The notes under the pieces: model-generated | The model's input: the letters and a program-made list of their open reading frames with translations, nothing else | Told to the model about the DNA's origin: nothing | The model's database searches: none | Shown: positions 8,388 to 39,137 of the stretch, piece by piece | Layout of the letters: every line of letters begins with the position of its first letter | Position numbering within the stretch: position 1 is the first letter of the stretch | Assembly (NCBI GenBank): GCA_902799985.1 | Contig: CADCCR010000001.1 | Span: 1 to 47,004, forward strand | Direction of reading: 5' to 3' | Origin: an uncultured Bacteroidales bacterium | GTDB lineage: Bacteria; Bacteroidota; Bacteroidia; Bacteroidales; Bacteroidaceae | Length of the DNA stretch: 47,004 nucleotides | Made by a program: the position numbers and the translations under genes

Positions 8388-9235
8388 TTCGTGCCATTAT
8401 CCTTGCAGCGGGCACAGCCTCGCGACTTCGTCCGCTCACATCCAATACGCCAAAGTGCCTGCTTAAGGTTGGCGAACGCACCTTGTTAGAGCGCTCAATG
8501 GACGCACTCATCAAGGCTGGCATACGCGAGTTCGTCATCGTGACGGGCTACCTGCACGAGCAAATCGAAAACTTCGTCCAGCAGACTTATGGCGACCGCA
8601 TCAGCGCATGCTTCATCCACAACAAGGACTACGAGACGACCAATAATATTTATTCGCTCTGGCTGGCTCGTCCAAAGGCTGACGGAGAAGAGGTACTCTT
8701 GCTCGACAGCGACCTGCTCTACGACGGAGAAATCATTGAGCGCGTCCTCACAGACAGTCACGAAAACGTCCTCACCCTCATTCGTCACGAACTTGGGGAG
8801 GAAGAGATGAAGGTCGTAATAGACCCACCCCTGCCCTCCCTTGAAGGGAAAGACCCCTCTAAATCTCCCCTTAAAGGGAAAGACCCCTCTAAATCTCCCC
8901 TTAAAGGGGAGACTTTCTCCCTCCCTTTAAGGGAGGGCTGGGGTGGGTCTATCACCGAAATCAGCAAGACGTGCGACCCATCCCTTGCCGCCGGCGAGAG
9001 TCTCGGCATCGAGCGCATGGGAAAAGCCTATACCACAGCCCTTTACAAGGAGCTGGAAGAGATGATGAACAGCGAGCACCTCGAGAACAAGTTCTACGAG
9101 TTGGCCTTCCAGCGGCTCATCCCAAAAGGTCACACCTTCTCTGTGCTCGACGTCACCGACTTCTTTTCCTGCGAGCTCGATACGATAGAGGACTTCGAGA
9201 ACGCCAAGCAACGCATACCCGCACACCTCTACTGA
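8330..9235 (+). CDS. LicC-like sugar/aminoalcohol-phosphate nucleotidyltransferase with repeat insertions
   Basis: 301 residues. From residue 20 the sequence shows the nucleotidyltransferase signature (RAIILAAGTASRLRPLT, then PKCLL), followed by the metal-binding LLLDSD motif. The family makes NDP-sugars or CDP-choline/ethanolamine-type products (LicC, PntC). Residues 8-19 (SDSSPFKGEQEG) and about 165-205 are translated repeats. The second insert splits a stretch that should read EEMKVVID then ITEISK, so about 40 residues were added to a surface loop without a frameshift. Whether activity survives is not visible, but the flanking signature residues are intact. Neighbours (HisC-like enzyme, LicD, CDP-alcohol transferases) favour CTP as the nucleotide. 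Confidence 0.82.
   Translation: MNKGTKVSDSSPFKGEQEGIRAIILAAGTASRLRPLTSNTPKCLLKVGERTLLERSMDALIKAGIREFVIVTGYLHEQIENFVQQTYGDRISACFIHNKDYETTNNIYSLWLARPKADGEEVLLLDSDLLYDGEIIERVLTDSHENVLTLIRHELGEEEMKVVIDPPLPSLEGKDPSKSPLKGKDPSKSPLKGETFSLPLREGWGGSITEISKTCDPSLAAGESLGIERMGKAYTTALYKELEEMMNSEHLENKFYELAFQRLIPKGHTFSVLDVTDFFSCELDTIEDFENAKQRIPAHLY
8819..8952. repeat. Composite palindromic element inside the nucleotidyltransferase gene
   Basis: An outer inverted repeat (ATAGACCCACCCC at the left, GGGGTGGGTCTAT at the right) encloses two direct 30-bp copies (8851-8880 and 8881-8910) built on CTCCCCTTAAAGGG. The whole block is open in the gene's frame. The nearly perfect outer arms suggest a discrete inserted unit. 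Confidence 0.8.
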
Positions 9236-9257
9236 AAGAGACCCCTTCCGTCTCAAG

Positions 9258-9411
9258 AATAAGCACAGGGCGCTTCGACGATAAGCACAGGGCGCTTCCG
9301 GAATAAGCACGAGGCGCTTCGGCGATAAGCACGGGGCGCTTCGGCAATAAGCACGGGGCGCTTCGGCAATAAGCACGGGGCGCTTCGGCGATAAGCACGG
9401 GGCGCTTCCGG
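9258..9411. repeat. 22-bp tandem array (7 units)
   Basis: Seven contiguous 22-bp units (starts 9258, 9280, 9302, 9324, 9346, 9368, 9390), each of the type AATAAGCACGGGGCGCTTCG plus two bases. There are no spacers, so it is not a CRISPR array. The same family recurs at 27498-27585 after dxr. The array fills most of the gap 9236-9603; the remainder holds the licD promoter and no gene. Confidence 0.9.
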
Positions 9412-9550
9412 AAGACATGCGGGGATTAATCCGACGTGCAACGCTTCGGAATTGTAGGCAAGGCTGGGGCCGTCGGTACACTTACTACTGGACGAGGGCG
9501 AGGCTCTGCCTGCTATTTTCAGCATCTTACCTTACTTTTCTGCCTTATGT

Positions 9551-9582
9551 TTTGGATAATTCTGCCAAAATGAGTATTTTTG
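9551..9582 (+). promoter_or_regulatory. Bacteroidetes-type promoter for licD and downstream genes
   Basis: TTTG (9551-9554) and TATTTTTG (9575-9582) are 20 bp apart, 21 bp before the ATG at 9604. It suggests that the licD half of the cluster can be transcribed separately. Confidence 0.7.
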
Positions 9583-9603
9583 CACTCTTAAAGTGTTACT
9601 GCT

Positions 9604-10455
9604 ATGCAAAGTATCAAATACATCACGGGCGACGAGCTTCGCAGGTTGCAGCTGATGTTGCTGGACTGCCTCGTGGAGATTGACAGGGTGTGCCGCGCCA
9701 ACAACATCCGCTACTGCATCGCATACGGCACTCTGCTGGGAGCTATACGGAACAAGGGATTCATCCCTTGGGACGATGATGCGGACATCGTGATGACGCG
9801 CGAGGAATACGACAAGTTCGCGCGTGTGGCAGACCAGCTCAACCCCGACATCTGTTTCTTTCAGGACAACGACACGGAAGCCACTTATCCCTGGGGATAT
9901 GGCAAGGTTCGTCGTACAGGTACGACGTATATCAGGGCAGGACAGGAGCACCTCAAGCATCGCACGGGCTTCATGATGGACATCTTCCCGATGGACGACC
10001 TCCCGAAGTCTCTCTTCGGGCAAAAGTTGTTCTACGGCATCTGCTTCGTCCTGCGCAAGATGACCTATGCTCAGGTGGGCTGGAAGTCGCAGTCCTCCAC
10101 TTTGTGGCGGACGTGGTTCAAGCTCCTCTCGTTCGTTCCTCCCCGATGGGTGCTTAGGGTGAGCAGGCTCTTGCAGAACCGTCACAACAACTCGACGCCC
10201 AACCGTGCGCACATGATGTTCATCCCTCCCGACGGATTGAGTGTGAGCGAGAATCGTCCCGATGAGCGTTATGGCTGGCGCAAGGAATGGCTCACGGACT
10301 TGACTGAGTATGAGTTCGAGGGCCACATGTTCTACGGTCCGAGGGACTATGCGGCATCGCTGGCATGGAGCTACGGTCCGAACTTCATGACGCCGCCTCC
10401 GCAGACAGAGCGCTGCTCGAACGCACCATGCTCCGACTATAGTTTTGACAAATAA
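9604..10455 (+). CDS. LicD family phosphotransferase
   Basis: 283 residues. The N-terminal half has the LicD signature: a helix with DRVCRANNIRYCIAYGTLLG, then IRNKGFIPWDDDADIVM, with the acidic cluster expected to bind the metal and nucleotide. Further conserved parts are FMMDIFPMDD and the C-terminal YGPNFMTPPP. LicD proteins move phosphocholine, or other phospho-groups carried by a CDP or similar donor, onto surface glycans. No signal peptide or membrane segment is evident, so it probably acts at the inner face of the membrane. It follows its own promoter and precedes the CDP-alcohol phosphotransferase by 20 bp. The acceptor is unknown. Confidence 0.88.
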   Translation: MQSIKYITGDELRRLQLMLLDCLVEIDRVCRANNIRYCIAYGTLLGAIRNKGFIPWDDDADIVMTREEYDKFARVADQLNPDICFFQDNDTEATYPWGYGKVRRTGTTYIRAGQEHLKHRTGFMMDIFPMDDLPKSLFGQKLFYGICFVLRKMTYAQVGWKSQSSTLWRTWFKLLSFVPPRWVLRVSRLLQNRHNNSTPNRAHMMFIPPDGLSVSENRPDERYGWRKEWLTDLTEYEFEGHMFYGPRDYAASLAWSYGPNFMTPPPQTERCSNAPCSDYSFDK

Positions 10456-10475
10456 TTAACCGCGATAAATTAGGT

Positions 10476-11489
10476 ATGGCATCGAAGAAATCAATGAATG
10501 AGTCGTTTCTGGCTTCAATGAAATCCACCGAGGTATGCTCTTGGTTCGAACTGAACGTCATGCGCCGCACGGGATTCTACCTGGCTTGGTTTGCCAACAA
10601 GTTGGACATTCACCCCAACACCATCACCATCCTGTCCATGATTCTTGGTGCCGGCAGCACATGGTTCTTCATGAGCGGAAGCTGGTACTACGGGTATGGC
10701 GAGCAGGGCGACAAGATGCTGGGCGTGGCCTTCAACATCATTGCCATCGGCATGCTCTTCTGGGCCGATGTGCTCGACAATACCGACGGACAGCTGGCAC
10801 GGCTCTCGGGGAAGAGGTCGCGCGTGGGTCGCATCCTGGACGGCGCAGCCGGCTTCGTCTGGATGATTCCCATCTATCTCGGCTTGGCCTGGCGCATCTA
10901 TCAGCATCACAGCATGGAATTCGGATGGTTCGGCATCGACGACACGCCAAGGAACGCTCTCATCTACGGACTTGCCGTTCTCGCCCTGACGTTCTATTCC
11001 GGCTTCGTGGGATGCGGAGGACAGCAACGCGTCGGCGACTACTACATGCAGGTCCACCTGCTCTTCTCGAAAGAGGCCAACGGGACCGAACTCGACAGCT
11101 CCGAGCAGCAACAGCAGGCCTACGACCAGCTCCCCGCCGATGCCAAGTGGTGGGAGCGGCTGTTCATGAAGAACTATATCAACTACACCAAGACGCAGGA
11201 ACGCACCACGCCCAAGCTCCAGAAGCTTCTCGCTAAGCTGAAAGAGAAGTACGGTAGCGTGAACAATATGCCCGAGAGCCTCCGGCAGCAGCTCCACGAC
11301 TACTCCCTGCCCATCATCCACCTCGACTTCACGGGCTTCTCGTACAGAGCTCTCTCGCTCGCCTTCTTCGTCCTCATAGACTTCCCCTTGGGACAGTTCC
11401 TCTTCGAGTCGATTGTGCTGGGCCTTGGGACGCTCTACACGATTAAGCGGCACGAAGCCTTCTGCGAAAAAGTAACCCGCGAGTTATGA
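10476..11489 (+). CDS. CDP-alcohol phosphotransferase family protein (paralog 2)
   Basis: 337 residues, integral membrane protein. The signature reads DNTDGQLARLSGKRSRVG followed by RILDG: the first three aspartates, the AR pair and both glycines are in place, while the fourth aspartate is glycine, exactly as in paralog 1 (5953-6972). The middle of the protein (about 190-250) is a soluble loop or domain, rich in Glu and Gln, shared only with paralog 1. The expected reaction is transfer of a phosphoalcohol from a CDP-alcohol to a membrane acceptor. The stop overlaps the start of the flippase-like gene (ATGA), so translation is coupled. Confidence 0.88.
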   Translation: MASKKSMNESFLASMKSTEVCSWFELNVMRRTGFYLAWFANKLDIHPNTITILSMILGAGSTWFFMSGSWYYGYGEQGDKMLGVAFNIIAIGMLFWADVLDNTDGQLARLSGKRSRVGRILDGAAGFVWMIPIYLGLAWRIYQHHSMEFGWFGIDDTPRNALIYGLAVLALTFYSGFVGCGGQQRVGDYYMQVHLLFSKEANGTELDSSEQQQQAYDQLPADAKWWERLFMKNYINYTKTQERTTPKLQKLLAKLKEKYGSVNNMPESLRQQLHDYSLPIIHLDFTGFSYRALSLAFFVLIDFPLGQFLFESIVLGLGTLYTIKRHEAFCEKVTREL

Positions 11490-12541
11490 AGATTACCAAG
11501 CAGCACATAAACAACTTCCTGTTCCTCCTGGGAATCGTGATGGTCATCATCATGATTTTCACCTTCGACGTGGACTTCCGCGACCTGTGGGGAATGATTC
11601 AGAAGGCAGGCATTTGGATGATACCCATCCTGGCCGTCTGGATTCTCATCTACTTCGTCAACGCCCTGGCTTGGCGCGAGATAATCAAGCACAACCTCGA
11701 CCCTGGCGAACACGTCAGCCTCTGGCGCATCTACCGCCTCACCATCAGCGGCTATGCCCTCAACAACACCACGCCCGTGGGAGGACTCGGAGGAGAACCC
11801 TACCGCATCATCGAGCTGACGAAGGACACCTCGAAGGCTCATGCCACATCCTCGGTCATCCTCTATTCGATGATGCACATCTACTCGCACTTCTGGTTCT
11901 GGTTCACGTCCATCTTCCTCTACATAGCCCTGGTGCTGGCAGGCGACCATCTGCCCATGAACTGGGGGATAGTCTGTGCCCTCCTGCTGCTCACCGTGTT
12001 CTGTCTGGCCGGATTCTACTTCTTCTCCTTAGGCTATCGCAACGGACTGACCGTGAAGGTCATCGGATGGATAGGAAAGATTCCGGGACTCAAGAACTGG
12101 AGCACACACTTCCTGGAACGCCACATCGACACGCTCAAGAACGTAGACCAGCAGATAGCTGCCCTGCAAAGCCAGAACAGCAAAGCCTTCTATCGCTCGC
12201 TCATCCTGGAATACGTGGCACGCCTCATGCTCGGACTGGAAGTGATGTTCATGCTCATCCTCTTCGGCAAGGACTCCGGAGGCGGCTTCAGCGGATACAC
12301 GCTCCTCTTCCTCCATTGCGTCCTGGTGGAAGCCATCACATCCTGGTGCGCCAACATCATCGGCTTCCTGCCCCTGCAGCTGGGCGTGCAGGAGTTGGGA
12401 TATGCCGTCTCGACAAGCGCATTGGGGCTCACCGGCGAGATAGGCTTCTTCGTGAGCATCATAGCCCGCGTACGACAAATCGTCTGGGCAGCCATCGGCA
12501 TCGCCCTGATGAGAGTCAAGCACAAAGGCAAATACGAATAA
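11486..12541 (+). CDS. Flippase-like membrane protein (LPG_synthase_TM/UPF0104)
   Basis: 351 residues with about eight transmembrane helices from residue 10 to the end. It carries the family motif [16 protein letters not shown] in the second loop and a conserved C-terminal bundle ([22 protein letters not shown]). The family is related to the membrane part of lysylphosphatidylglycerol synthase, which flips lipids with modified headgroups. No aminoacyltransferase domain is attached. The 4-nt overlap with the CDP-alcohol phosphotransferase suggests that it moves the product of that enzyme across the inner membrane. This role is inferred from context and homology. Confidence 0.85.
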
Positions 12542-12563
12542 CGACAACCCTACAATTTACAAC

Positions 12564-17701: not shown

Positions 17702-17764
17702 TTCCCCCCTCCTTTGGAGGGGACGGGGGAGGCTTTTCCTTCGGAGGGGACGGGGGAGGCTGTT
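17702..17764. repeat. Tandem palindromic repeats (intergenic)
   Basis: Two G-rich units in tandem: CCCCCCTCCTTTGGAGGGG with a GGGGGAGGCT tail, then CCTTCGGAGGGGACGGGG. Just before them (17660-17695) is a second short family built on GTTAAAAGG, also seen near 19365-19420 and 43218-43245. Confidence 0.8.
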
Positions 17765-19411: not shown

Positions 19412-20161
19412 TTAAAAGGGTGCTACAGCTTCAAGACTCCCCTCTCCTCGGAGAGGGGTCGGGGGTGAGGCTAGGAACTCCTCCAACATTGCCACGGCCT
19501 CGCGCTTGGCTGTCTCGAGGTCGTCATTGACGAGAATGCGGTCGAACTGCGGAGCAAACGACATCTCGTATTCCGCTTTTGCCAGTCGGCTTTCTATCTG
19601 CTTCATGTCGTCCGTGGCGCGTAGAATCAGGCGTTTTCGCAGAGCCTCGATTGATGGCGGCTGGATGAAGATGCTCAGAGCCTTGTCGCCATAGTGTTTC
19701 TTGATGTTGATGCCGCCCTTGACGTCCACGTCAAACACAACATTCAGGCCTGCAGCCAGTTTCTCCTCGACCTGACTTTTGAGTGTGCCGTAGAAGCGAC
19801 CTTCGTAGACTTCCTCATATTCCAGGAAGTCATCCGCCTTAATGTGGTTGCGGAACTCCTCTTCCGAGAGGAAGTAATACTCCACGCCATTCTGCTCCTC
19901 GCCCCGCGGCGGCCTGCTCGTAGCGCTCACGCTAAAGGCCAGTCGGAACTCCGGATGCTCCTTCATCAAGAAGTTCACGATGGTGCTCTTCCCACTCCCC
20001 GAAGGAGCGGATACGATAAGAAGTTTTCCAGCCTCCCCCGTCCCCTCCAAAGGAGGGGGGAACGGCGAGGAATGAAGATCTTTATCTTTACCAGCCTCCA
20101 CCCGGCCCTCCGAAGGAGGGGGGAACGGCGAGGAATGAAGCTCTTTGTCTATTGTTTCCAT
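19412..20161 (-). CDS. gmk: Guanylate kinase with repeat-derived N- and C-terminal extensions
   Basis: The kinase core begins at GKLLIVSAPSGSGKST (P-loop) and includes SATSRPPRGEEQNGVEYYF and the lid/core residues expected for GMP kinase. It is essential for GDP/dGDP supply. The frame is open upstream through the second half of a DUF559 gene; no start remains directly before the P-loop. I take the ATG at 20161; a TTG at 20317 is the other option. Residues 8-49 are two tandem 21-residue units (HSSPFPPPSEGRVEAGK type) encoded by palindromic repeats, and the last about 20 residues (SPPTPLRGEGSLEAVAPF) are also repeat-derived. The stop lies in a GTTTAAAAGG repeat. Confidence 0.85.
   Translation of the reverse strand: METIDKELHSSPFPPPSEGRVEAGKDKDLHSSPFPPPLEGTGEAGKLLIVSAPSGSGKSTIVNFLMKEHPEFRLAFSVSATSRPPRGEEQNGVEYYFLSEEEFRNHIKADDFLEYEEVYEGRFYGTLKSQVEEKLAAGLNVVFDVDVKGGINIKKHYGDKALSIFIQPPSIEALRKRLILRATDDMKQIESRLAKAEYEMSFAPQFDRILVNDDLETAKREAVAMLEEFLASPPTPLRGEGSLEAVAPF
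20028..20153. repeat. Tandem 63-bp duplication of a palindromic repeat in the DUF559/gmk linker
   Basis: Units 20028-20090 and 20091-20153, each starting CCAGCCTCC and containing a (G)CCCTCC(A/G)AAGGAGGGGGG palindrome. The 63-bp length keeps the frame, giving two 21-residue copies in the protein. Confidence 0.85.
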
Positions 20162-20503
20162 GACTTTATCAAATGCTCCTATTATTTCTTCGTTTCTGAA
20201 TCGTATTACTCGATAACCCAACTGTCTCAAGTCCTCGGTTCTTTGCTCATCCTTTACAATTTGTGAGGTCCTGCCGTGATACCCTCCATCTATTTCGACA
20301 ATGAGTTTCTTCGACAATCACACAAAATCTGCAATGTAGTCTCCTATGATATGCTGTCTTCTGAACCTTACTCCACATTGAGAAGCGCGGATGGCGTTCC
20401 ACAATATGCTTTCTGCTTCTGTCTGATTCTTTCGGTTTTCCTGTGAGAACCGGTGCAACAAATCATATGCCGTACAATTTGCCGTCTCGTAGCCACGTTT
20501 CAT
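20162..20503 (-). pseudogene. DUF559 (Vsr-like endonuclease) gene split by a TGA
   Basis: The first frame (20503-20318) reads MKRGYETANCTAYDLLHRFSQ and on to RFRRQHIIGDYIADFV, then TGA at 20318-20320. The same frame continues LSKKLIVEIDGGYHG...YRVIRFRNEEII, the rest of a DUF559 domain. The PD-(D/E)xK-type residues (Asp in GDYIADF, Glu-x-Asp in VEIDGG) lie on either side of the stop. Homologs usually have Cys or another residue there, so a single TGT/TGC-to-TGA change is the simplest explanation. The gene sits between palindromic repeats (20550-20580 and 20028-20153) at the yicC/gmk junction and runs in frame into gmk. Confidence 0.75.
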
Positions 20504-20549
20504 CTACTTTTCCGCTTCTCTTTTCCAGTCCCAAAATGTAACTTCCACT

Positions 20550-20580
20550 CCCCCCTCCTTTGGAGGGGTCGGGGGAGGCT
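20550..20580. repeat. Palindromic repeat between yicC and DUF559
   Basis: CCCCCCTCCTTTGGAGGGG followed by TCGGGGGAGGCT, abutting the yicC stop codon at 20582. It is the upstream border of the DUF559 segment. Confidence 0.85.
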
Positions 20581-20581
20581 T

Positions 20582-21460
20582 TTACATTACATTCAGCACT
20601 TGTTCCTTTATCTGCTCCAGCTCGTCCTTCATCTTGACCACGATGTTCTGCATCTCGGCCAGATTGCTCTTGCTGCCGGTGGTGTTTATCTCGCGACCCA
20701 TCTCCTGAGCGATGAAGCCCAGCTTCTTGCCTTGCCCGTGACCCTCTTGCATCGTCTTTCGGAAGTACTGGAGATGATTGGCGAGGCGTTGCTTCTCCTC
20801 GCTGATGTCGAGCTTTTCGATGTAGTATATCATCTCCTGCTCCAGGCGGTTCTTGTCGTACTGCACATCGGGGATGGCTGCAAGCCCTTCCATGATGCGC
20901 TGCCGTATCTTCTCCACGCGCTGCTTCTCATAGGGCTCGATGCTTGAGAGCAAAGCGGCGATGTTGTCCAGCTTCTCCTCGAACTTCTTCTGCAGAGCCT
21001 CGCCTTCCTGTTTGCGGAATGCCACGAGCTGACCGACAGCCTGCTGCACCACCTCGCGAGCCACTTGCCACTCCTCTTCCGTGAGTTCCTGCTGCACCTC
21101 GCCGCGCGAGAGCACATCGGGCATGCGGACCAATGTGTGCCAATAGTCGTCGGGCTCGGGGATGCCGTACTTCTTCGAGATGTCGAGCATCTGACGATAG
21201 TAGGCAGCCACCAGCTCGTCGTTGATGGGACAGGCACCTGCCTGGTCCTGCTGCTCCGTCCAAAGGTTGAACTCCACTTTGCCGCGCTCCAAAGCTTGCG
21301 TTATCATGGCTCGCACCTCCATCTCCTTCTCGCGATAGACAGATGCCACGCGCGTGGAGAGATCGAGAGCCTTGCTGTTGAGCGACTTCACCTCTGCTAG
21401 AATCTTCTTTCCCTGGTATTCGGCCGAGGCCTTGCCGTATCCAGTCATCGATAGTATCAT
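20582..21460 (-). CDS. yicC: YicC/YloC family endoribonuclease
   Basis: 292 residues. N-terminal MILSMTGYGKA and the C-terminal block EINTTGSKSN with QNIVVKMKDELEQIKEQVLNV are diagnostic of YicC. Residues 150-260 form long helices (QRVEKIRQRI; NRLEQEMIYYIEKLDISEE). YicC is an RNase that helps turn over small RNAs and structured RNA. It has its own promoter and heads the yicC-gmk-nadD order; in related genomes gmk follows directly, whereas here a repeat and a DUF559 gene intervene. Confidence 0.93.
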   Translation of the reverse strand: MILSMTGYGKASAEYQGKKILAEVKSLNSKALDLSTRVASVYREKEMEVRAMITQALERGKVEFNLWTEQQDQAGACPINDELVAAYYRQMLDISKKYGIPEPDDYWHTLVRMPDVLSRGEVQQELTEEEWQVAREVVQQAVGQLVAFRKQEGEALQKKFEEKLDNIAALLSSIEPYEKQRVEKIRQRIMEGLAAIPDVQYDKNRLEQEMIYYIEKLDISEEKQRLANHLQYFRKTMQEGHGQGKKLGFIAQEMGREINTTGSKSNLAEMQNIVVKMKDELEQIKEQVLNVM

Positions 21461-23024: not shown

Positions 23025-23735
23025 GTGTCCTGTATACTACATATCGAGACGAGCACGAAGGTGTGTTCGGTAGCCCTGAGCGAGAACGGCAGCCTCATCT
23101 TCCACAAAGAGGATATGGAGGGGCCGAACCATGCGGTCGTCTGCGGCGTGTTCGTGGACGAAGCCCTGTCCTTTGCCAACTCCCATGCCATCCCCGTGGA
23201 TGCCGTGGCCGTAAGCGAAGGGCCTGGCAGCTACACAGGTCTGCGCATCGGCGTCTCGCTGGCAAAAGGCGTCTGCTACGGGCGCGACCTGCCGCTGCTT
23301 GCCGTGCCCACGCTCAAACTGCTTTGCGTCCCTGTCCTATTGAACGACTCACATTTTCCCCCTCCCTTGGAGGAGACGGGGGAGGCTTTGCTCGTGCCGA
23401 TGATAGACGCACGCAGAATGGAGGTGTATAGTGCCGTCTACGACCGAGCCCTGCGCGAGGTGCGCCCCGTGGGAGCCGACATTGTGGAGGCCGACACCTA
23501 TCTGCCCTATCTCGAGGAACACCCCGTCTACTTCTTCGGCGACGGAGCCGCAAAGTGCCGGAGCGTCATCCAGCACCCCAATGCCCACTTCATCGATGGC
23601 ATCCTGCCGCTGGCAAAGTGGATGTTCCCCTTGGCAGAACGCTCCCTGCACCTCGGCGAGAAGCAGGATGTAGCATACTTCGAACCCTTCTATCTGAAGG
23701 AGTTCGTCGCAATAAAGTCTAAAAACCTACTGTAA
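23025..23735 (+). CDS. tsaB: tRNA t6A threonylcarbamoyl transferase subunit TsaB, with repeat insertion
   Basis: 236 residues from a GTG at 23025 (SCILHIETSTKVCSVAL). The ASKHA-fold features of TsaB are present: SEGPGSYTGLRIGVSLAKG and MIDARRMEVYSAVYD. TsaB scaffolds TsaD for t6A37 modification of tRNA and is essential in most bacteria. At about residues 107-122 the sequence NDSHFPPPLEETGEA is encoded by a palindromic repeat, sitting right before the LLVPMIDARR strand where relatives continue directly. The stop overlaps the next start (TAATG), so the gene heads the operon with DUF4290 and murA. Confidence 0.9.
   Translation: MSCILHIETSTKVCSVALSENGSLIFHKEDMEGPNHAVVCGVFVDEALSFANSHAIPVDAVAVSEGPGSYTGLRIGVSLAKGVCYGRDLPLLAVPTLKLLCVPVLLNDSHFPPPLEETGEALLVPMIDARRMEVYSAVYDRALREVRPVGADIVEADTYLPYLEEHPVYFFGDGAAKCRSVIQHPNAHFIDGILPLAKWMFPLAERSLHLGEKQDVAYFEPFYLKEFVAIKSKNLL
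23355..23388. repeat. Palindromic repeat inside tsaB
   Basis: CCCCCTCCCTTGGAGGAG with a GGGGGAGGCT tail, translated in frame as FPPPLEETGEA. Confidence 0.85.
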
Positions 23736-25711: not shown

Positions 25712-26217
25712 TTAAGGAAGACGAAGTCTATAAGATAGGACAGATAGGGCGGACGCATGGCGTGAAGGGCGAAGTGACGCTGAGCTTCACCGACGATGTC
25801 TGGGACCGCGCCGAGGCGGAGTACCTCTTCCTCCGCGTGGATGGCATCCTCGTGCCGTTCTTCCTCGAGGAATACCGCTTCCGGAGCGACACGACGGCAC
25901 TCCTGAAGTTCCTCGACTACGACTCCGCCAACGACGTGCAGTTCCTTGTGGGCTGCGACGTGTTCTTCCCTCATGCGCTGACCCCCGAAGCGAGCGAAGA
26001 GGATGAGTACACTTGGCGGTACTTCACGGGCTTCCGTCTCTTCGACGAAAAGGCCGGCCTCATCGGCACCATCGACAGCGTGGACGACTCGACACAGAAC
26101 ATCCTCTTCCAAGTCGGCAAGCAGCTCATCCCTGCTGCCGAGGCTTGGATAAAGGACATCAACCACAAGGAGCGCACCATCAGCATGTCGCTGCCGGAGG
26201 GCTTACTTGACCTGTAA
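25708..26217 (+). CDS. rimM: Ribosome maturation factor RimM
   Basis: 169 residues from the ATG at 25708. Seven extra upstream codons (from 25687) lie in a simple repeat and are not counted. Signature parts are YKIGQIGRTHGVKGEV at the N-terminus and the PRC-barrel-like C-terminal half with YTWRYFTGFRLFD, GLIGTIDSVDD and IPAAEAWIKDINH. RimM assists 30S subunit assembly. No trmD or rpsP is adjacent; the setting between murA and dxr is typical of Bacteroidetes. Confidence 0.92.
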   Translation: MIKEDEVYKIGQIGRTHGVKGEVTLSFTDDVWDRAEAEYLFLRVDGILVPFFLEEYRFRSDTTALLKFLDYDSANDVQFLVGCDVFFPHALTPEASEEDEYTWRYFTGFRLFDEKAGLIGTIDSVDDSTQNILFQVGKQLIPAAEAWIKDINHKERTISMSLPEGLLDL

Positions 26218-26218
26218 G

Positions 26219-26250
26219 GCCCCCTCTAACTCCCCCTCTATGGGGAGAAA
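26219..26250. repeat. Palindromic repeat before dxr
   Basis: CCCCCTCTAACTCCCCCTCT then ATGGGGAGAA. The same block stands at 38381-38410 before purE, also just upstream of the 78-bp shared repeat. Confidence 0.85.
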
Positions 26251-26251
26251 C

Positions 26252-26329
26252 AAATGGTAAATGGAACTCCGCGCATTAAAAGCGCGCCTTGTTTCTAAAG
26301 AATACAAGAAATGATAAAATGGTAAATGA
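26252..26329. repeat. 78-bp shared block, copy 1 (dxr leader)
   Basis: Matches 38473-38550 at 77 of 78 positions. It contains a CGCGCATTAAAAGCGCG hairpin and ends 4 bp before the dxr start codon. Its last part contains ATGGTAAATGA, which could add the residues MVNEI in frame. Confidence 0.9.
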
Positions 26330-26333
26330 AATA

Positions 26334-27524
26334 ATGAAAAGGGTTTGTATCCTTGGCTCCACGGGTAGCATCGGCACTCAGACGCTGGAGGTCATTGCCG
26401 AGCACCCCGACCTCTTCGAGGCATACGTGCTGACGGCAGGACGAAACGCCGACCTGCTCATCCGGCAGGCCAAGGAGTACCAGCCGCAATGCGTAGTCAT
26501 CGCCGACGAGAGCAAGTACGACTACGTCTGCGAAGCCTTGAAGGACGAACCGATACAGGTCTATGCGGGAGCCGATGCCCTCTGCCAAGTGGTGCAGATG
26601 GAGCCGGTGGACATCGTACTGACGGCTCTTGTGGGCTTCAGCGGTCTGCGCCCCACCATCAGCGCCATCGAGGCGGGCAAGCCCATCGCCCTGGCCAACA
26701 AGGAGACATTGGTGGTGGCCGGCGAGCTCATCACACAGCTCTGCCTGGAGCACAAGGTGCCCCTGTTGCCCGTCGATAGCGAGCACAGCGCCATCTTCCA
26801 AAGCCTCATGGGCGAAGTAAGCCCAATAGAAAAACTCATCCTGACAGCCAGCGGCGGCCCCTTCCGCACGTTCACGCTCGACCAGCTGCAGGGCGTCACA
26901 CCTGCCCAGGCCCTGAAGCATCCCAACTGGGACATGGGGGCGAAGATAACCATCGACAGCGCTTCGATGATGAACAAAGGCTTCGAGGTCATCGAGGCCC
27001 GATGGCTGTTCGACGTCACACCGGAGAAGATTCAGGTCGTCGTCCATCCGCAAAGCATCCTCCACAGCGCTGTGCAGTTCGAGGACGGTGCCGTGAAGGG
27101 ACAGATGGGCATGCCCGACATGCGCGTCCCCATCCAGCTGGCCCTCTCCTACCCCGAGCGCCTCAAGAGCAACTTCCCGCGCATCGACTGGTGGGACCTC
27201 AAGGACCTGACCTTCGAGAAGCCCGACCCCGAGAAGTTCCGCTGCCTCCAGATGGCCTACGAAGCCATCCGTCTGGGCGGCAACGCTGCCTGCATCGTCA
27301 ATGCCGCCAACGAGGTGGTGAACCTGGCCTTCCGACAGGAGCGTTGCAGCTTCCTCCAGATGGCCGACATCATCGAGGAGACGCTCCAACGCATGCCGCA
27401 TCAGGAGAAACCCACCCTGCAGGACTACCTTGACTGCGACCGCGAGACACGCGAGATGGCGAACGCCGTGTTGGAAGAAACCGCACGCCGCGTCAGCCAT
27501 AAGGGCCCTGCGCTTCCAAAATAA
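26334..27524 (+). CDS. dxr: 1-deoxy-D-xylulose-5-phosphate reductoisomerase
   Basis: 396 residues from the ATG at 26334 (MKRVCILGSTGSIGTQTLEV, the NADPH-binding loop). Starts further upstream (26319, or TTG 26289) lie in the 78-bp repeat. Core motifs are LANKETLVVAGE, PVDSEHSAIFQ, LTASGGPFR, NMG-type metal site PNWDMGAKITIDSASMMNKG, and VVHPQSI. It makes MEP in isoprenoid synthesis; ispG of the same pathway is at 39157. The last residues (about RVSHKGPALPK) and the stop codon lie inside a 22-bp repeat array, so the C-terminus is repeat-derived. Confidence 0.95.
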   Translation: MKRVCILGSTGSIGTQTLEVIAEHPDLFEAYVLTAGRNADLLIRQAKEYQPQCVVIADESKYDYVCEALKDEPIQVYAGADALCQVVQMEPVDIVLTALVGFSGLRPTISAIEAGKPIALANKETLVVAGELITQLCLEHKVPLLPVDSEHSAIFQSLMGEVSPIEKLILTASGGPFRTFTLDQLQGVTPAQALKHPNWDMGAKITIDSASMMNKGFEVIEARWLFDVTPEKIQVVVHPQSILHSAVQFEDGAVKGQMGMPDMRVPIQLALSYPERLKSNFPRIDWWDLKDLTFEKPDPEKFRCLQMAYEAIRLGGNAACIVNAANEVVNLAFRQERCSFLQMADIIEETLQRMPHQEKPTLQDYLDCDRETREMANAVLEETARRVSHKGPALPK

Positions 27525-27585
27525 GCGCCTCGCGCTTCCGGAATAAGCGCCTTGCGCTTCGGCAATAAGCGCACGCCGCTTCTGC
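27498..27585. repeat. 22-bp tandem array after dxr (4 units)
   Basis: Units start at 27498 (degenerate), 27520, 27542 and 27564, of the type AATAAGCGCCTTGCGCTTCG plus two bases, the same family as 9258-9411. Each unit can form an AAGCGC/GCGCTT hairpin. The TAA in the second unit is the dxr stop codon. Confidence 0.88.
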
Positions 27586-27659
27586 CGACACGACACGCCA
27601 CAAGTAAAACAACAGCCCTCGGAAAGAGAGCGAGACAGACATAAGATAATACACAACGA

Positions 27660-29643: not shown

Positions 29644-31311
29644 ATGGACTTAGTTGACGCCATAAAGGAATACGACAGCTTCTGCCAGCGGACACGCCGG
29701 ACAGACCCGCTCCGCCTTATCGACAACCCGCTGCTGAGGCGCATCGGTGGGAAGGCCGACGAGCTGGGGCTGGAATGCTACGTCGTGGGCGGCTACGTGA
29801 GGGACATCATCCTGGAACGTCCGTCGAAGGATATTGATGTGGTGGTAACAGCCCCCTCCCCCGTCCCCTCCAAAGGAGGGGGGAACCTTCCAGATACACG
29901 CCGTCCGTTCTCCCCTCCTTTGGAGGGGTTGGGGGAGGCTTTAGGTCCTGGCATCCGCCTTGCCCAAGCCCTTGCCAAAGACATGGGGCGCGGCGCTCAC
30001 GTCAGCATCTACCGCAGCTTCGGCACAGCACAACTCAAGTGGCACGACCAGGAGATTGAGTTCGTCGGCGCACGGCGCGAAAGCTATCAGCGAGACAGCC
30101 GGAAGCCCATCGTGGAGGACGGCACACTCGACGACGACCTGCACCGACGCGACTTCACCATCAATGCCCTCGCCTTCTGCCTCAACGCAAAACGCTATGG
30201 CGAGTTCATCGACCTCTTCGAAGGACTGCTCGACCTCGAGGACGGCATCATCGCCACGCCACTCGACCCCGACATCACCTTCAGCGACGACCCTCTGCGC
30301 ATGATGCGATGCATCCGCTTCGCCACACAACTGCGTTTCCAGATAGAGGAAGAGACAGCGGAAGCCCTCAAGCGCAACGCCGAACGCATCAAAATCATCT
30401 CGCAGGAACGCATCACCGACGAACTGAACAAAATCATGATGACCTCGGCACCCAGCATCGGCTTCATCGAACTGAGCCGCTGCGGACTGCTGCCCATCAT
30501 CCTGCCCGAAGTGGCTGCCCTCGAAGGCGTAGAGACACGCAACGGCCGCGCCCATAAGGACAACTTCTACCACACGCTCGAGGTGCTGGATAATGTGTGT
30601 CAGGAGCAAGGGGCAAGGAGCAAGGAGCAGGAGATTAGTGACTGCTCCCAAGGCTTTTCCGAAGGCAATCCTCTTGCCCCTTGCCCCTTGCCCCCTGCTC
30701 CTCTCTTTTTGCGTTGGGCCGCCCTCCTGCACGACATCGGCAAGCCGCGCAGCAAGCGATGGGACAACCAGGCTGGCTGGACGTTCCACAACCACAACTA
30801 CATCGGGCAGAAGATGGTGGCGCCACTCTTCCGGCGCATGAAGCTGCCGACGGACGAACGCATGGCCTACGTAGAGAAGCTCGTGGGACTGCACATGCGA
30901 CCCATCGCCATAGCCGACGACGTGGTGACCGACAGCGCCGTCCGCCGCCTGCTCTTCGAGGCCGGAGAGGACATCGACGACCTGATGCGCCTCTGCGAAG
31001 CCGACATCACCAGCAAGAACCGCGAGAAGAAGCGGCGCTTCCTCGAGAACTTCCAGCTCGTGCGCGAGAAGCTCATCGACCTGCAGGCACGCGACAACTA
31101 CCGCACCTGGCACAACCCCATCACGGGCGAGGAAATCATGCAAACCTTCGGCCTCAAGCCCTGCCGCGAGATAGGCGTGCTCAAGCAAGCCGTCAAGGAC
31201 GCCATCTGGGACTCCGTCATCCCCAACGACCACGACGCAGCCTTCCAGTTCATGCTCGCGAAGGCAAAAGAGATGAACCTTACACCCGTTCCCACGAAAA
31301 CAAACAAATAA
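29644..31311 (+). CDS. cca: CCA tRNA nucleotidyltransferase (HD domain) with two repeat insertions
   Basis: 555 residues from the ATG at 29644 (preceded by AAAAGAG); an earlier ATG (29623) lies in a repeat. Class II features are CYVVGGYVRDIILERPSKDIDVVV with the catalytic Asp-x-Asp, then RRDFTINALAF, and an HD domain with LLHDIGKP. The enzyme adds CCA to tRNA 3' ends. Residues about 69-101 (PSPVPSKGGGNLPDTRRPF and on) come from an inverted pair of palindromic repeats placed immediately after the Asp-x-Asp strand. Residues about 319-355 come from a different inverted repeat just before the HD motif. Both inserts keep the frame. Relatives without inserts are about 475-490 residues. Confidence 0.92.
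   Translation: MDLVDAIKEYDSFCQRTRRTDPLRLIDNPLLRRIGGKADELGLECYVVGGYVRDIILERPSKDIDVVVTAPSPVPSKGGGNLPDTRRPFSPPLEGLGEALGPGIRLAQALAKDMGRGAHVSIYRSFGTAQLKWHDQEIEFVGARRESYQRDSRKPIVEDGTLDDDLHRRDFTINALAFCLNAKRYGEFIDLFEGLLDLEDGIIATPLDPDITFSDDPLRMMRCIRFATQLRFQIEEETAEALKRNAERIKIISQERITDELNKIMMTSAPSIGFIELSRCGLLPIILPEVAALEGVETRNGRAHKDNFYHTLEVLDNVCQEQGARSKEQEISDCSQGFSEGNPLAPCPLPPAPLFLRWAALLHDIGKPRSKRWDNQAGWTFHNHNYIGQKMVAPLFRRMKLPTDERMAYVEKLVGLHMRPIAIADDVVTDSAVRRLLFEAGEDIDDLMRLCEADITSKNREKKRRFLENFQLVREKLIDLQARDNYRTWHNPITGEEIMQTFGLKPCREIGVLKQAVKDAIWDSVIPNDHDAAFQFMLAKAKEMNLTPVPTKTNK
29851..29941. repeat. Inverted pair of palindromic repeats inside cca
   Basis: A reverse copy (CCCCTCCAAAGGAGGGGGG) and a forward copy (CCCCTCCTTTGGAGGGG with G-rich tail) about 35 bp apart. 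Together they can fold into one long hairpin. Confidence 0.88.
30602..30703. repeat. Second-type inverted repeat inside cca
   Basis: Left arm 30602-30633 with GGAGCAAGGGGCAAGGAGC, right arm 30671-30703 with CTTGCCCCTTGCCCCTTG. The sequence differs from the main palindromic family but is likewise open in frame. Translated as SKEQEISDCSQGFSEG and flanks. Confidence 0.8.
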
Positions 31312-31831: not shown

Positions 31832-33286
31832 ATGGCCCAAAGAAACCTACAGACACAGGAACAGGCACAGACACAGCAGCAGACCCAGGTGCAGCAACTC
31901 TTGCCGCAGCATGTCCTGCTAGTCCGCCTGACGGAAATGCCCGTCGAGGCCCTGCAGCACCGCGTAGAGCTGGAGTGCATGGAGAATCCCTGGCTGGAAA
32001 CCTCCCCCAACCCCTCCGAAGAAGGGGAGAAGCAACTACTCGACGAAGTCAACGGCGGCGAGGGAGGCGATCTGTGCTCCCCTCCTTCGGAGGGGTCGGG
32101 GGAAGCCTCTGATGCTCTATACGACTACCGCTCGGAAGAGGACATGCCCGACTTCCTGACGGGTGCCAGCCACAGCAACAATGCCGCTGAGTACATGTCC
32201 TACGACGACACGCTCTCCCTCACCGACCGCCTCCGCGAACAGATGGCCGACTTCGAGCTCACCGACCACGAGAAGGAGCTCATGGAGTACCTCATCGGCT
32301 CGCTCGACGAGGACGGACTGCTGAAGAAGTCGCTCGCCGTCCTGGCCGACGAAGCGGAAATCTATCAGGGCCTCAACACGAGCGCCGAGGAGCTGGAGAA
32401 GGCCCTCAACATCCTCCAACAGTTCGACCCGCCCGGCATCGGAGCACGTTCCTTGCAGGAGTGCCTCCTCATACAAGTCAAGAGGAACGAGAACATCCCC
32501 GGCCGCGAACAGCTTATCAAAATTTTTGATAACCTCTTCGACGACTTCATCCACAAGCGCTGGCAACGCATCGAGCAGCGGCTCCACATCAACCATGCAC
32601 AGGCGGAACAGCTGCAGCACGAAATACTGAAACTCAACCCGAGGCCCGGCGGCTCCATCGGAGCAAAGACGTCCGACCGCGCACAAAGCATACAGCCGGA
32701 CTTCCTGGTCGATACCGACGAGGACGGCACCATCACCGTCACCCTCGCTCAAGGCAACCAGCCATCGCTCGTCATCAGCTCCGATGCCGACGGACAACAG
32801 GATGCCTTCGTCCGTCAGTACGTGGAGCGCGGGCAGATGTTCATCAATGCCCTGCAACAAAGGGCAGAGACCATGACGCGCACCATGCAGGCCATCGTCA
32901 AGTTGCAGAAACCTTTCTTCCAGACGGGCGACGAGACGCGGCTGCGCCCCATGCGGCTCGAAGATGTTGCCACCGCCACCGGCTACGACATCAGCACCAT
33001 CAGCCGCGTCGCCAACAGCAAATACGTAGAGACCTCTTTCGGCACCTACCCGCTGAGATGGTTCTTCACCCATAAAGCCACACAGAACAACGAAGGCGAC
33101 GACGTCACAGCCCGACAGGTGATGGCAGCCCTGCGCAAACTCATAGAACAGGAGGACAAACAGCAGCCGCTCAGCGACGAACGTCTGGCACAGATGCTCC
33201 ATGACGAAGGCTTCAACATCGCCCGACGCACCGCCAGTAAGTACCGCGAACAGATGGGAATACCTGTAGCACGCATGAGAAAATGA
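31832..33286 (+). CDS. rpoN: RNA polymerase sigma-54 factor with repeat insertion
   Basis: 484 residues. A Gln-rich N-terminal activator-interacting region (QEQAQTQQQTQVQQLLPQHV) is followed by the core-binding and DNA-binding domains. The C-terminus has the RpoN box (ARRTASKYREQMGIP). Residues about 57-92 (TSPNPSEEGEK to PPSEGSGEAS) are translated palindromic repeats, placed in the variable linker between region I and the core-binding domain, where acidic low-complexity sequence is usual, so function is probably kept. The 4-nt overlap with the PAP2 gene implies coupling. Confidence 0.95.
   Translation: MAQRNLQTQEQAQTQQQTQVQQLLPQHVLLVRLTEMPVEALQHRVELECMENPWLETSPNPSEEGEKQLLDEVNGGEGGDLCSPPSEGSGEASDALYDYRSEEDMPDFLTGASHSNNAAEYMSYDDTLSLTDRLREQMADFELTDHEKELMEYLIGSLDEDGLLKKSLAVLADEAEIYQGLNTSAEELEKALNILQQFDPPGIGARSLQECLLIQVKRNENIPGREQLIKIFDNLFDDFIHKRWQRIEQRLHINHAQAEQLQHEILKLNPRPGGSIGAKTSDRAQSIQPDFLVDTDEDGTITVTLAQGNQPSLVISSDADGQQDAFVRQYVERGQMFINALQQRAETMTRTMQAIVKLQKPFFQTGDETRLRPMRLEDVATATGYDISTISRVANSKYVETSFGTYPLRWFFTHKATQNNEGDDVTARQVMAALRKLIEQEDKQQPLSDERLAQMLHDEGFNIARRTASKYREQMGIPVARMRK
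32001..32108. repeat. Palindromic repeat pair inside rpoN
   Basis: A reverse copy (CCCAACCCCTCCGAAGAAGG), a spacer with CTCGACGAAGTCAACG (32039-32054), and a forward copy (CCCCTCCTTCGGAGGGG with G-rich tail). The spacer word is shared with intergenic copies at 22895 and 36868, so it belongs to the element and not to rpoN. Confidence 0.88.
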
Positions 33287-36688: not shown

Positions 36689-36713
36689 TCCGCAGGCACA
36701 GCACATTTCGCTA

Positions 36714-36779
36714 TGGGAAGGCCGGAAGGCAGCAACCAACAACGACGACATCAACCTTCAAGATTTAGGAGGAATATGA
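36714..36779 (+). pseudogene. Remnant of a CotH gene 3' end
   Basis: The frame reads WEGRKAATNN then DDINLQDLGGI and a TGA. The intact CotH gene downstream ends WEGQKAQPQQ, LVNS, DDINLQDLGGI and TGA (38274-38349). Nucleotide identity continues to the stop codon, with a small deletion in the middle. Only this tail remains, so a former tandem CotH copy was probably lost or replaced. Confidence 0.8.
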
Positions 36780-36828
36780 TGTCCGTATCGCTCAACAACT
36801 TAATGAAATGGTAAATGATTAAATAGGA

Positions 36829-36885
36829 GACCCACCTCTGACTTCCCCTCTATGGGGAGAAGCAAAAGCTCGACGAAGTCAATTC
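36829..36885. repeat. Palindromic repeat before cotH
   Basis: CCCCTCTATGGGGAGAAGC followed by the spacer AGCTCGACGAAGTCAATTCC (36868 onward). Preceding it, 36788-36825 carries ATGAAATGGTAAATGATTAAA, related to the start of the 78-bp block. The gap 36689-36957 otherwise holds the CotH remnant only. Confidence 0.8.
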
Positions 36886-36957
36886 CAGGCGAGGGAAGAC
36901 CGAGCAATTCAACCAAACGGACGGCCTGTTTAAGTTTGAGAAGAAAATACAGTAGCA

Positions 36958-38349
36958 TTGAAAAAGGTTCTTCATATAATAGTTATAGCTCTTTGCCTTA
37001 TCGTGTCATCATGCAACACGAAAGGGCAGACGTCTCCCCGTGAGGAGAGCGATTACTCTGAGGCTCTCTTTGCGCTGGGCGAACTGGCTTCCGTAGATAT
37101 CAAGATGCCGGCAGACACTTGGCAGAAGATTCTCTCCAAAGCCCCGGACAAGACATATTATAAATGTAGCGTCACCATCAACGGAGAGCAGTTCGACAAT
37201 GTCAGCATCCGCACGAAAGGAGCAAGCAGCCTCGACGACGTGATGCTGATGAAGTCCGACCGCTACAGCTTCACGCTGAAGCTGAACAAACATGAGAAAG
37301 GACAGACGTATCACGGCCTGTCGAAACTCCTGCTCAACAATAACATTTGGGATGCCACGCAGATGAAGGATGCCATCGTCTATGACATGTGTCGCTTCAT
37401 CGGGTTGCCAGCGCCATTGACCAACTATGCCCGAGTCACGCTCAACGGAAAACTCTTCGGCTATTACCTGATGGTGGAACCCGTTGACAAGAACTTCTGC
37501 CATCGCAACTGGCCCGACGAGGTCTCGAACATCTACAAGCCATACCACAACCTTGCCTACAATGGCGAGGACATGAAAGACTATGCCGACATCGCGGACT
37601 TCGCAAAGGTGAAGGGCGGAGAGGCTTCCATGCAGCGCGTCGTGGCAGCACTGAAAAGCGTCCACGAAGGGAAGGACATCGAGGAACACGTCGATGTGGA
37701 AAGCATAACGAAGTATATGGCATTGCAGACAGTAGTTGTCAACTTCGACTGCATGACTGGTCGTAACACGCAGAATTACTATCTGCGCGAGGCTGATGGC
37801 ATGATTAGCCTCATCCCTTGGGACTACAATCTGGCATGGGGCGGCTATCCTGAGGATGAAGACATGGAGGGCGAGGACATGCTTGAGGGACAAGGGGAGC
37901 CAATGCTGCCCGAGAATGCAGGAATGCGGAGCAAGGAAGAGGTCAGCCGCGTGGTGAACTTCCCTATCGACACGCCGTTCTCTGCCGGCCTCAACGAACG
38001 TACCTTCTTCATGAAGCTGCTTGCCAACGAACAGTTCAAGGCACGATACTATCATTACCTCGACATGCTCTGCAACCAATACATCCTTGGCGGCGAGTTT
38101 GGCAAGACGCTGTCCTTGATAAACGAAGAGATAGGACAGCTTGCCGGCACGGAAGCCAACGCCTTCTACAATAACGACCGTTTCCACAAGGCACAACAGA
38201 CATTCCGACTCATGCTTGAGAGGCGTGCCGCTTCTGTTCTCGGACAGATAAAAGGCTCCATACCCTCCACATGGGAAGGCCAGAAGGCACAGCCGCAACA
38301 GCTCGTCAACAGCGACGACATCAACCTGCAAGATTTAGGAGGGATATGA
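36958..38349 (+). CDS. CotH kinase family lipoprotein
   Basis: 463 residues from a TTG at 36958, chosen because a lipoprotein signal follows directly (KKVLHIIVIALCLIVSSC, Cys at 19). CotH-family features are the beta-rich N-part (KCSVTINGEQFDNVSIRTKG with GASS), SFTLKLNKHEKGQTYHGLSKL, NYARVTLNGKLFGYYLMVEPVDKNF, and the acidic catalytic-type stretch LIPWDYNLAWGG near 285. Spore CotH is an atypical protein kinase; the role in Gram-negative anaerobes is unknown. An acidic low-complexity insert (EDEDMEGEDMLEGQGEP) follows. Tail sequence is duplicated upstream as a remnant. Confidence 0.85.
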   Translation: MKKVLHIIVIALCLIVSSCNTKGQTSPREESDYSEALFALGELASVDIKMPADTWQKILSKAPDKTYYKCSVTINGEQFDNVSIRTKGASSLDDVMLMKSDRYSFTLKLNKHEKGQTYHGLSKLLLNNNIWDATQMKDAIVYDMCRFIGLPAPLTNYARVTLNGKLFGYYLMVEPVDKNFCHRNWPDEVSNIYKPYHNLAYNGEDMKDYADIADFAKVKGGEASMQRVVAALKSVHEGKDIEEHVDVESITKYMALQTVVVNFDCMTGRNTQNYYLREADGMISLIPWDYNLAWGGYPEDEDMEGEDMLEGQGEPMLPENAGMRSKEEVSRVVNFPIDTPFSAGLNERTFFMKLLANEQFKARYYHYLDMLCNQYILGGEFGKTLSLINEEIGQLAGTEANAFYNNDRFHKAQQTFRLMLERRAASVLGQIKGSIPSTWEGQKAQPQQLVNSDDINLQDLGGI

Positions 38350-38354
38350 AAGGA

Positions 38355-38456
38355 CCCCTAGCCCCCTATTAAATGGGAGACCCCCTCTAACTCCCCCTCT
38401 ATGGGGAGAACCGAAGGTCGGCGGCCGTTCCGCCTGCGCCTGACCGAAGGGAAGAA
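38355..38456. repeat. Palindromic repeat and linked sequence between cotH and purE
   Basis: CCCCTAGCCCCCTATTAAATGG, a block CCCCCTCTAACTCCCCCTCT with ATGGGGAGAA (as before dxr), and CCGCCTGCGCCTGACCGAAG (38430-38456), which matches 1751-1777 inside the sigma chimera at 26 of 27 positions. Confidence 0.82.
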
Positions 38457-38472
38457 GGGTAAGCCAACTATT

Positions 38473-38550
38473 AAATGGTAAATGGAACTCCGCGCATTAA
38501 AAGCGCGCCTTGTTTCTAAAGAATACAAGAAATGATTAAATGGTAAATGA
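38473..38550. repeat. 78-bp shared block, copy 2 (purE leader)
   Basis: Differs from 26252-26329 at one base. It ends 4 bp before the purE start and contains an in-frame ATG (38540), which would add MVNDI, paralleling MVNEI at dxr. Confidence 0.9.
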
Positions 38551-38554
38551 CATT

Positions 38555-39061
38555 ATGAATCCTATCGTAAGCATCATCATGGGCAGTACAAGCGACCTGC
38601 CCGTTATGGAGAAAGCAGCCAAGTTTCTCGATGAAATGGGCATTCCTTTCGAGATGAATGCCTTCTCTGCTCATCGTACACCAACAGAAGTCGAGACCTT
38701 CGCCCGCACAGCAGAAGAGCGAGGTCTGAAGGTCATCATTGCAGGAGCCGGCATGGCTGCGGCCTTGCCTGGCGTTGTGGCAGCCAGCACGACGCTACCC
38801 GTCATCGGTGTCCCCATCAAGGGAATGCTCGACGGCCTCGACGCGATGCTGAGCATCATACAGATGCCTCCCGGCATACCCGTGGCCACAGTCGGCGTGA
38901 ATGGCGCACAGAACGCCGCCATCCTTGCTGCCGAAATGCTTGCCTTGAGCGATGAAGCACTTGCAGGGAAGCTTCGCGACTACAAGCTGAGCCTCAAGGA
39001 GAAGATTGTCAAGGCAAACGAAGAACTGAAGGAAGTGAAATATAACTATAAAACTAACTAA
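38555..39061 (+). CDS. purE: N5-carboxyaminoimidazole ribonucleotide mutase
   Basis: 168 residues from the ATG at 38555 (MNPIVSIIMGSTSDLPVMEKA). The class I PurE motifs are present: GSTSDL, SAHRTP, AGAGMAAALPGVVA and the GVPI / ATVGVNGAQNAAILAAEML region. It interconverts N5-CAIR and CAIR in purine synthesis. The alternative ATG at 38540 lies in the shared 78-bp block. No other pur gene is nearby; ispG follows after a palindromic repeat. Confidence 0.95.
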   Translation: MNPIVSIIMGSTSDLPVMEKAAKFLDEMGIPFEMNAFSAHRTPTEVETFARTAEERGLKVIIAGAGMAAALPGVVAASTTLPVIGVPIKGMLDGLDAMLSIIQMPPGIPVATVGVNGAQNAAILAAEMLALSDEALAGKLRDYKLSLKEKIVKANEELKEVKYNYKTN

Positions 39062-39063
39062 AG

Positions 39064-39137
39064 ACCCCTCTCCTTCTCCCCCGAGGGGGAGTGACTGCCG
39101 CTGCGAAGAAGCCTCCCCTCGGGGAGGTTTGGATGGG
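39064..39137. repeat. Palindromic double-hairpin repeat between purE and ispG
   Basis: CTCCCCCGAGGGGGAG, spacer GACTGCCGCTGCGAAGAAGC, then CTCCCCTCGGGGAGG. It is the reverse orientation of the element at the sigma chimera junction (1819-1891). Its frame is open toward ispG. Confidence 0.85.

Follow-up and report, generated by a model that had tools for sequence, protein, structure and literature searches.

Palindromic repeats and a DUF559 gene in the window

The 47,004-nucleotide (nt) stretch analyzed here (the window; contig CADCCR010000001.1 of assembly GCA_902799985.1) comes from an uncultured Bacteroidales bacterium whose genome (G000) is a draft assembly, 79% complete and in 215 contigs. 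It contains a family of GC-rich palindromic repeats, several copies of which lie in frame within housekeeping genes, and a gene for a DUF559 nuclease that sits between outward-facing copies of the same repeat. From the 26 candidate units listed in the window, 23 related units were aligned; those at 17734, 22914, and 8361 were left out as doubtful. Each unit runs from a C/T-rich head into a GC-rich hairpin, and the alignment places the repeats in one superfamily with three subfamilies, A (GCCTCCCCCGTCCCCTCCAAAGGAGGGG), B (..CTCTATGGGGAG), and C (..CTTAAAGGGGAG). Because MAFFT left the hairpins of different subfamilies out of register, a covariance model (R1) was built for subfamily A only, from nine of its units. 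The features of the window that concern cca, rpoN, tsaB, gmk, and the DUF559 gene are listed here with their supporting evidence (ORF, open reading frame).

29850..29943, plus strand: subfamily A inverted pair, in frame in cca (site 1); R1, ortholog alignment, Cca structure 4wby
30605..30706 (about these coordinates), plus strand: second palindrome in cca (site 2), of a different family; ortholog alignment
31996..32110, plus strand: subfamily A inverted pair, in frame in rpoN; R1, ortholog alignment
23356..23390, minus strand: lone subfamily A unit, in frame in tsaB; R1, ortholog alignment
20027..20124, plus strand: two units of subfamily A, upstream of the gmk fold and next to one side of the DUF559 gene; R1, alignment
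20138..20452, minus strand: gene for a DUF559 nuclease, interrupted by a single in-frame TGA; DUF559 search, with DUF559 positions 52-108 found in an ORF shared with gmk
20549..20583, minus strand: opposite-facing subfamily A unit, across the DUF559 gene from the two plus-strand units; R1, pair-orientation count
19436..19475, minus strand: weaker related unit encoding the gmk C-terminal tail; R1 (E 0.0035), alignment

A first-pass annotation of the window had reported the repeat family at more than fifteen places, which the 23 aligned units bear out. The core CCCCTCCNNNGGAGGGG has 6 exact matches in the window and 14 at up to three mismatches, compared with a mean of 2.33 (standard deviation 1.47, largest 7) in 100 shuffles of the window. 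The draft state of G000 could be taken to favor an artifact of composition or assembly, but this is scarcely credible given the excess of core matches over shuffles, the presence of the same inserts in other assemblies, and the occurrence of inserted DUF559 in isolates, Flavobacterium cucumis among them. The same annotation had proposed a covariance-model scan, and R1 identifies at least 39 units at E < 1e-4 in G000, 9 of them in the window and 30 elsewhere; at E ≤ 0.1 there are at least 85 rows, including a related 40-nt kind with weaker scores. These genome counts are lower bounds, 150 of 768 candidates having been scored. An Rfam scan of the window returned no match.

Neighboring units less than 600 bp apart are predominantly opposed, with 14 pairs in the order '+-', three '++', one '--', and none '-+'. 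The full insert is thus an inverted pair with its heads outward. Eleven of the 14 opposed pairs are compact (87-129 bp) and three are long (367-513 bp), and the DUF559 gene of the window lies inside one of the long ones. The first-pass annotation had also noted that the palindromes read without stops in both orientations, which is no more than shuffled sequence gives: among elements taken from DUF559 flanks, 37 of 139 lack stops in all six frames, and shuffling yields a mean of 39. Stop-freedom is therefore a matter of mere composition, and selection for stop-free element ends was rejected.

Inserts in housekeeping genes compared with relatives

Ortholog alignments of cca, tsaB, and rpoN reveal inserts that all preserve the reading frame and are missing from part of the relatives, in keeping with the first-pass proposal that in-frame palindromes occupy protein loops. 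Several of the proteins concerned are ones that are usually essential. In tsaB, the insert is missing in six of the seven relatives seen (G005, G008, G012, G017, G022, and G024); the window has half of it only, and G013 has the full pair at that site. The rpoN insert is common to the window, G013, and G020 and is missing in four of six relatives (G005, G008, G012, and G024).

The two cca sites vary more widely. Site 1, which maps between chain residues 51 and 54 of the solved Cca structure 4wby, holds subfamily A in the window and a different palindrome in G013. G017 has a short insert rich in GC there, the loop is short in G012 and G024, and G005, G008, and G022 have a few residues or none. 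Site 2 holds four distinct palindromes (in G000, G020, G013, and G012/G024), shorter and different inserts in G017 and G022, and next to nothing in G005 and G008. Since the cca loops differ genome by genome, different sequences have struck the same loops again and again. The site 2 palindromes include one AT-rich type (GAAGAATTAAGAATG..CATTCTTCATTCTTC) at L155 (G020:C177), and their families have no known partner here.

If the extra residues were native loops rather than insertions, the reading that the first-pass annotation had named as its refutation, their variability and the other short insertions of some relatives would fit. This reading is most improbable, however, because identical DNA repeats occur in many unrelated genes, and the alignments, with relatives that lack the inserts, already contradict it. 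Among the genes listed in the first-pass annotation, cca, rpoN, and tsaB do carry inserts within them, but gmk does not: its units are found ahead of the kinase fold, in the stretch separating the broken DUF559 gene from gmk, and in the C-terminal tail, leaving the fold intact.

Outside the window, 17 of 24 subfamily A sites are in Pfam-supported ORFs. The hosts are ValRS, TrpF, MutS2, SerRS, OPT, V-ATPase I, two GH43 proteins, a TonB-type receptor, GcvT, RbfA/FtsX, a rhamnosidase, CbiJ, MatE, PLD, PurD, and a topoisomerase, with the inserts in RbfA and MatE forming terminal tails. Each of the 30 A units found elsewhere in G000 falls within some ORF of at least 100 amino acids (aa), but this is a weak indication in GC-rich frames, and the Pfam-supported counts are the ones relied on here. 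When a 5.8-kb stretch was aligned to G005, repeats were located in the five alignment breaks.

DUF559 genes are flanked by inverted repeats

A search for DUF559 in 41 genomes returned 51 rows. Nine of these were set aside, namely the gene in the window and eight matches that were truncated or partial, which left 42 loci for examination. Each left flank was scored against the reverse-complemented right flank. In these relatives the flank score reached 18 in 31 of 42 loci and 15 in 36 of 42; a score of at least 18 was obtained for 2 of 400 and 3 of 400 random 315-bp windows (5 of 800 overall) and for 5 of 24 loci of Y1 transposase genes. For a wider sample of near relatives we scanned the genome_contigs set with DUF559 alignment A4 and took the best 80 of 584 confirmed stretches, all from records whose titles name Bacteroidota or its groups. 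Among the 79 usable loci, 43 scored at least 18, 48 at least 15, and 56 at least 13. DUF559 was also found in 38 plasmid records; of the seven scored (from Cyanobacteria, Deinococcus, and Alphaproteobacteria), five had flank scores of 17 to 63 and the others 12.5 and 10, values with no random control for those genomes.

The repeats and the gene also tend to occur together. DUF559 is present in 11 of 12 genus genomes with at least 20 R1 matches, versus 3 of 13 with fewer. Over 70 loci, the similarity of the elements correlates with that of their nucleases (Spearman 0.274, 0 of 2000 permutations). The element type at the DUF559 gene of contig C88 has 42 copies in the genome (0 for a reversed-pattern control), the gene's own arm being one base shorter than the 42-copy type, and the type at the DUF559 gene of C34 has six, its own flank counted. 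At the long pairs of C83 and C103, a scan of 40 stretches detected no DUF559 remnants beyond the two DUF559 genes already known at these places.

DUF559 resembles a homing endonuclease

By sequence and fold, DUF559 is kin to the EDxHD/Vsr-like homing endonucleases. Profile comparison matched it to the homing endonuclease I-Bth0305I (3r3p) with an E of 2.5e-7, and its structure model (mean predicted local distance difference test score 84.4) matches 3hrl, 3r3p (1.5e-5), and, weakly, the Vsr structure 1vsr (0.018). EDxHD is described as a family of homing endonucleases (PMC3943268), and a second source includes a DUF559 gene in it (PMC9403480). Six residues, E15, D43, E54, D56, H60, and D69, show no variation across the 50 of 80 DUF559 domains that were aligned, embedded copies included, and are candidate catalytic residues.

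This kinship raises the alternative that DUF559 is a passenger, homing into or beside palindromes that something else moves. A homing endonuclease is among its nearest solved relatives, and a passenger nuclease too would sit between repeats. We consider this unlikely, as DUF559 copies tend to carry their own matched element variant on both flanks and element-rich genomes tend to have DUF559.

DUF559 is embedded in host proteins

The first-pass annotation missed both the link to DUF559 and the in-frame insertion of DUF559 itself into host genes. With embedding defined as an open frame of at least 60 aa on each side of DUF559, 42 of the 80 loci are embedded, 11 are open downstream only, one upstream only, and 26 on neither side; none of 10 Y1 control loci is embedded. 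A Pfam host domain could be named for all 42, albeit from one side only for L228 and L276, which are cut by contig ends. The hosts are RecG (10), LeuRS (nine), ValRS (seven), other class I synthetases of the IleRS type (three), MetH (three), GH31 (two), UvrD (two), and, in single cases, MazG, DegT, Cca, urocanase, Lhr, and ABC-F. Beyond the 42, DUF559 is fused on the C-terminal side to IspF, Gmk, and RNase H-like domains, and on the N-terminal side to GcpE, phosphoglycerate mutase, and an epimerase.

In ValRS, the DUF559 insert lies between YYLRY and AVVATTRPET with palindromes encoding the linkers, and the DUF559-bearing protein is the sole full-length ValRS match in G041, G042, and G043. G026 has DUF559 in LeuRS. 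The insertion site in the Cca of L260 is unlike either cca site of the window. Pfam hits at E ≤ 1e-5 included no intein or Hint family in any of the 42 embedded loci. No group I or II intron reached the Rfam gathering threshold in 20 DUF559 loci with long frames, and the frames read through the element.

In a poorly resolved DUF559 tree (9 of 77 branches starred), the embedded or free state changes three times and the 14 host labels change 16 times. With so few changes, the insertions appear to persist in their hosts, the embedded copies forming lineages of their own. When the phylum was sampled, DUF559 turned up in 171 of 296 Bacteroidota genomes; among the best 150 DUF559 rows, 43 have an open frame of at least 300 aa.

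RecG carries DUF559 at one common position in ten Bacteroidota records (L207, L214, L216, L226, L231, L238, L239, L243, L249, and L269), most of whose titles name Flavobacteriaceae, and these copies lack clear repeats at their flanks. The RecG copies may represent a domesticated nuclease domain.

Y1 transposase genes as a candidate source

Because outward inverted head-plus-hairpin pairs resemble REPINs, a RAYT-like (REP-associated tyrosine transposase; REP, repetitive extragenic palindrome) Y1 enzyme could move the palindromes in the manner of REPIN-RAYT systems, and G000 does have two weak Y1 matches, one of which is truncated where its contig stops. We searched 25 genomes for Y1 genes and scanned 29 Y1 loci with R1, which represents subfamily A only. 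No R1 match was found in any of them, on which ground a RAYT origin of the palindromes was rejected. Furthermore, the Y1 gene of L039 has just 8 bp left upstream, and the palindrome beside the Y1 gene of L025 is of another kind. Movement by a Y1 transposase is accordingly improbable, more so than the passenger alternative.

The Y1 gene at L039:1252-2448 (G000:C5) encodes a 398-aa Y1-like protein, flanked by hflX and a fumarase-like gene, and could be a transposase that has become domesticated. G003, G010, and G013 likewise have weak Y1 matches in long frames. At L025:1000-2150 (G013:C4), a Y1 gene and its adjacent palindrome (AGCCCAGGGC..GCCCTGGG) are apparently a separate REPtron.

A proposed nuclease-bearing element

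DUF559 is associated with inverted repeats and with in-frame insertion, and we infer that it mobilizes the element. The palindromes are probably the termini of a mobile element, together with shortened copies of it that are non-autonomous; this element would bear DUF559, dwell in ORFs, and not splice. The full element would consist of head, GC-rich hairpin, DUF559 gene, hairpin, and head, with the heads outward. DUF559 would recognize the hairpin ends and cut there or at the target, whereupon break repair would presumably copy the element into the cut site. The inserted peptide or domain would not be spliced out. Short pairs would be non-autonomous copies, which may be deletion derivatives of DUF559 elements, and the survivors would be copies of frame-keeping length whose peptide falls in a tolerant loop. 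If only such copies survive, the in-frame pattern would arise from selection and not from targeting.

Several observations weigh against this proposal. Only 15 of the 42 embedded loci reach a flank score of 18, the ten RecG insertions score just 8 to 13, and embedded and free DUF559 copies mostly occupy different regions of the tree. The draft genome G018 is the exception among the element-rich genomes of the genus: it yields 106 R1 matches at E ≤ 1 but none to DUF559. The correlation between element and nuclease similarity is uncontrolled for relatedness. Seven of the 24 subfamily A sites outside the window have no Pfam host, and at one palindrome (L118, G000:C199:2119-2153) the GcvT domain is split over two frames, possibly through a broken gene or an assembly error. 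Neither a target-site duplication nor an exact empty site could be read in relatives that are too diverged and whose loops are often replaced. No movement of the element was seen.

We know of no enzyme for palindromes of this kind. Intragenic REPs and Rickettsia palindromic elements (RPEs) are themselves already known (PMC3733652, PMC10969869). The first-pass annotation had likened the repeats to RPEs, which, in the same sources, are also palindromic DNA in frame in protein genes and comprise several families. That comparison holds for the mode of insertion, and kinship in sequence would be conjectural; Rfam matched nothing in the window. The portions consulted of those sources link no enzyme to RPEs, whereas here a nuclease gene lies between the repeats. 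Overall, the first-pass interpretation is partly supported. REPIN-RAYT systems, or REPtrons, share the inverted pair of asymmetric hairpins, the scattered copies, and one gene between copies (PMC3733652, PMC6006769), but their enzyme is a Y1 tyrosine transposase and not a Vsr-like nuclease, and many copies here are intragenic. Inteins with homing endonucleases likewise place an endonuclease domain in frame in conserved host proteins, but the splicing domain is missing from the Pfam results for every embedded locus. I-Bth0305I, which DUF559 matches by profile and fold, differs in that the DUF559 loci have flanking hairpin repeats, dispersed short copies, and no intron that we could find. Caulobacter VsrA is also a DUF559, Vsr-like protein, tied to DNA damage in cells; it is proposed to be a mismatch-repair enzyme with a link to a methyltransferase, not to repeats (PMC12907096).

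A DUF559 nuclease-repeat element class was not found in the open-licence literature searched, which is not proof of absence. We lean towards regarding these elements as such a class of bacterial mobile element, in which an EDxHD/Vsr-like DUF559 nuclease between hairpin-head terminal repeats spreads in frame and unspliced through protein genes, among them the ValRS gene that in several genomes gives the sole full match, and spawns short peptide-adding palindromes in essential proteins. The class may account for many enzyme-less GC-rich palindromes in Bacteroidota; Cyanobacteria, Deinococcus, and Alphaproteobacteria are perhaps further cases. DUF559 is widespread and still of 'unknown function' in Pfam; if the link is true, both it and the palindromes gain a function. 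A mobile element would then be able to live in essential ORFs without splicing, how well proteins tolerate the insertion of peptides and domains would be directly testable, and the insertions would offer one route to new loops and domains.

Other repeats in the window

The remaining units of the superfamily in the window are the following, identified by unit alignment unless stated otherwise.

17703..17764, minus strand: subfamily A unit and a partial one, between ORFs; R1
8816..8954, plus strand: array of subfamily C-type units with inverted outer ends, in frame in the nucleotidyltransferase ORF (8330)
1804..1890, plus strand: opposed units in the sigma chimera ORF (1451), with Sigma70_r2 upstream and a Plug domain downstream
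39059..39145, plus strand: two related units, opposed to each other, where the GcpE ORF starts; the GcpE domain itself begins at residue 27
8262..8299, plus strand: unit of subfamily C, where the upstream ORF ends
1281..1317, plus strand: subfamily B unit
26216..26251, plus strand: subfamily B unit
36829..36864, plus strand: subfamily B unit
38378..38413, plus strand: subfamily B unit

A 22-bp unit of the GATAAGCACGGGGCGCTTCGGC type is tandemly repeated at 9255-9410 and, far away, at 27457-27607. An 87-bp sequence containing a GC-rich inverted repeat occurs at 26252-26338 and again, with 97% identity, at 38473-38559, and relatives of it seem to be present at C39, also in G000.

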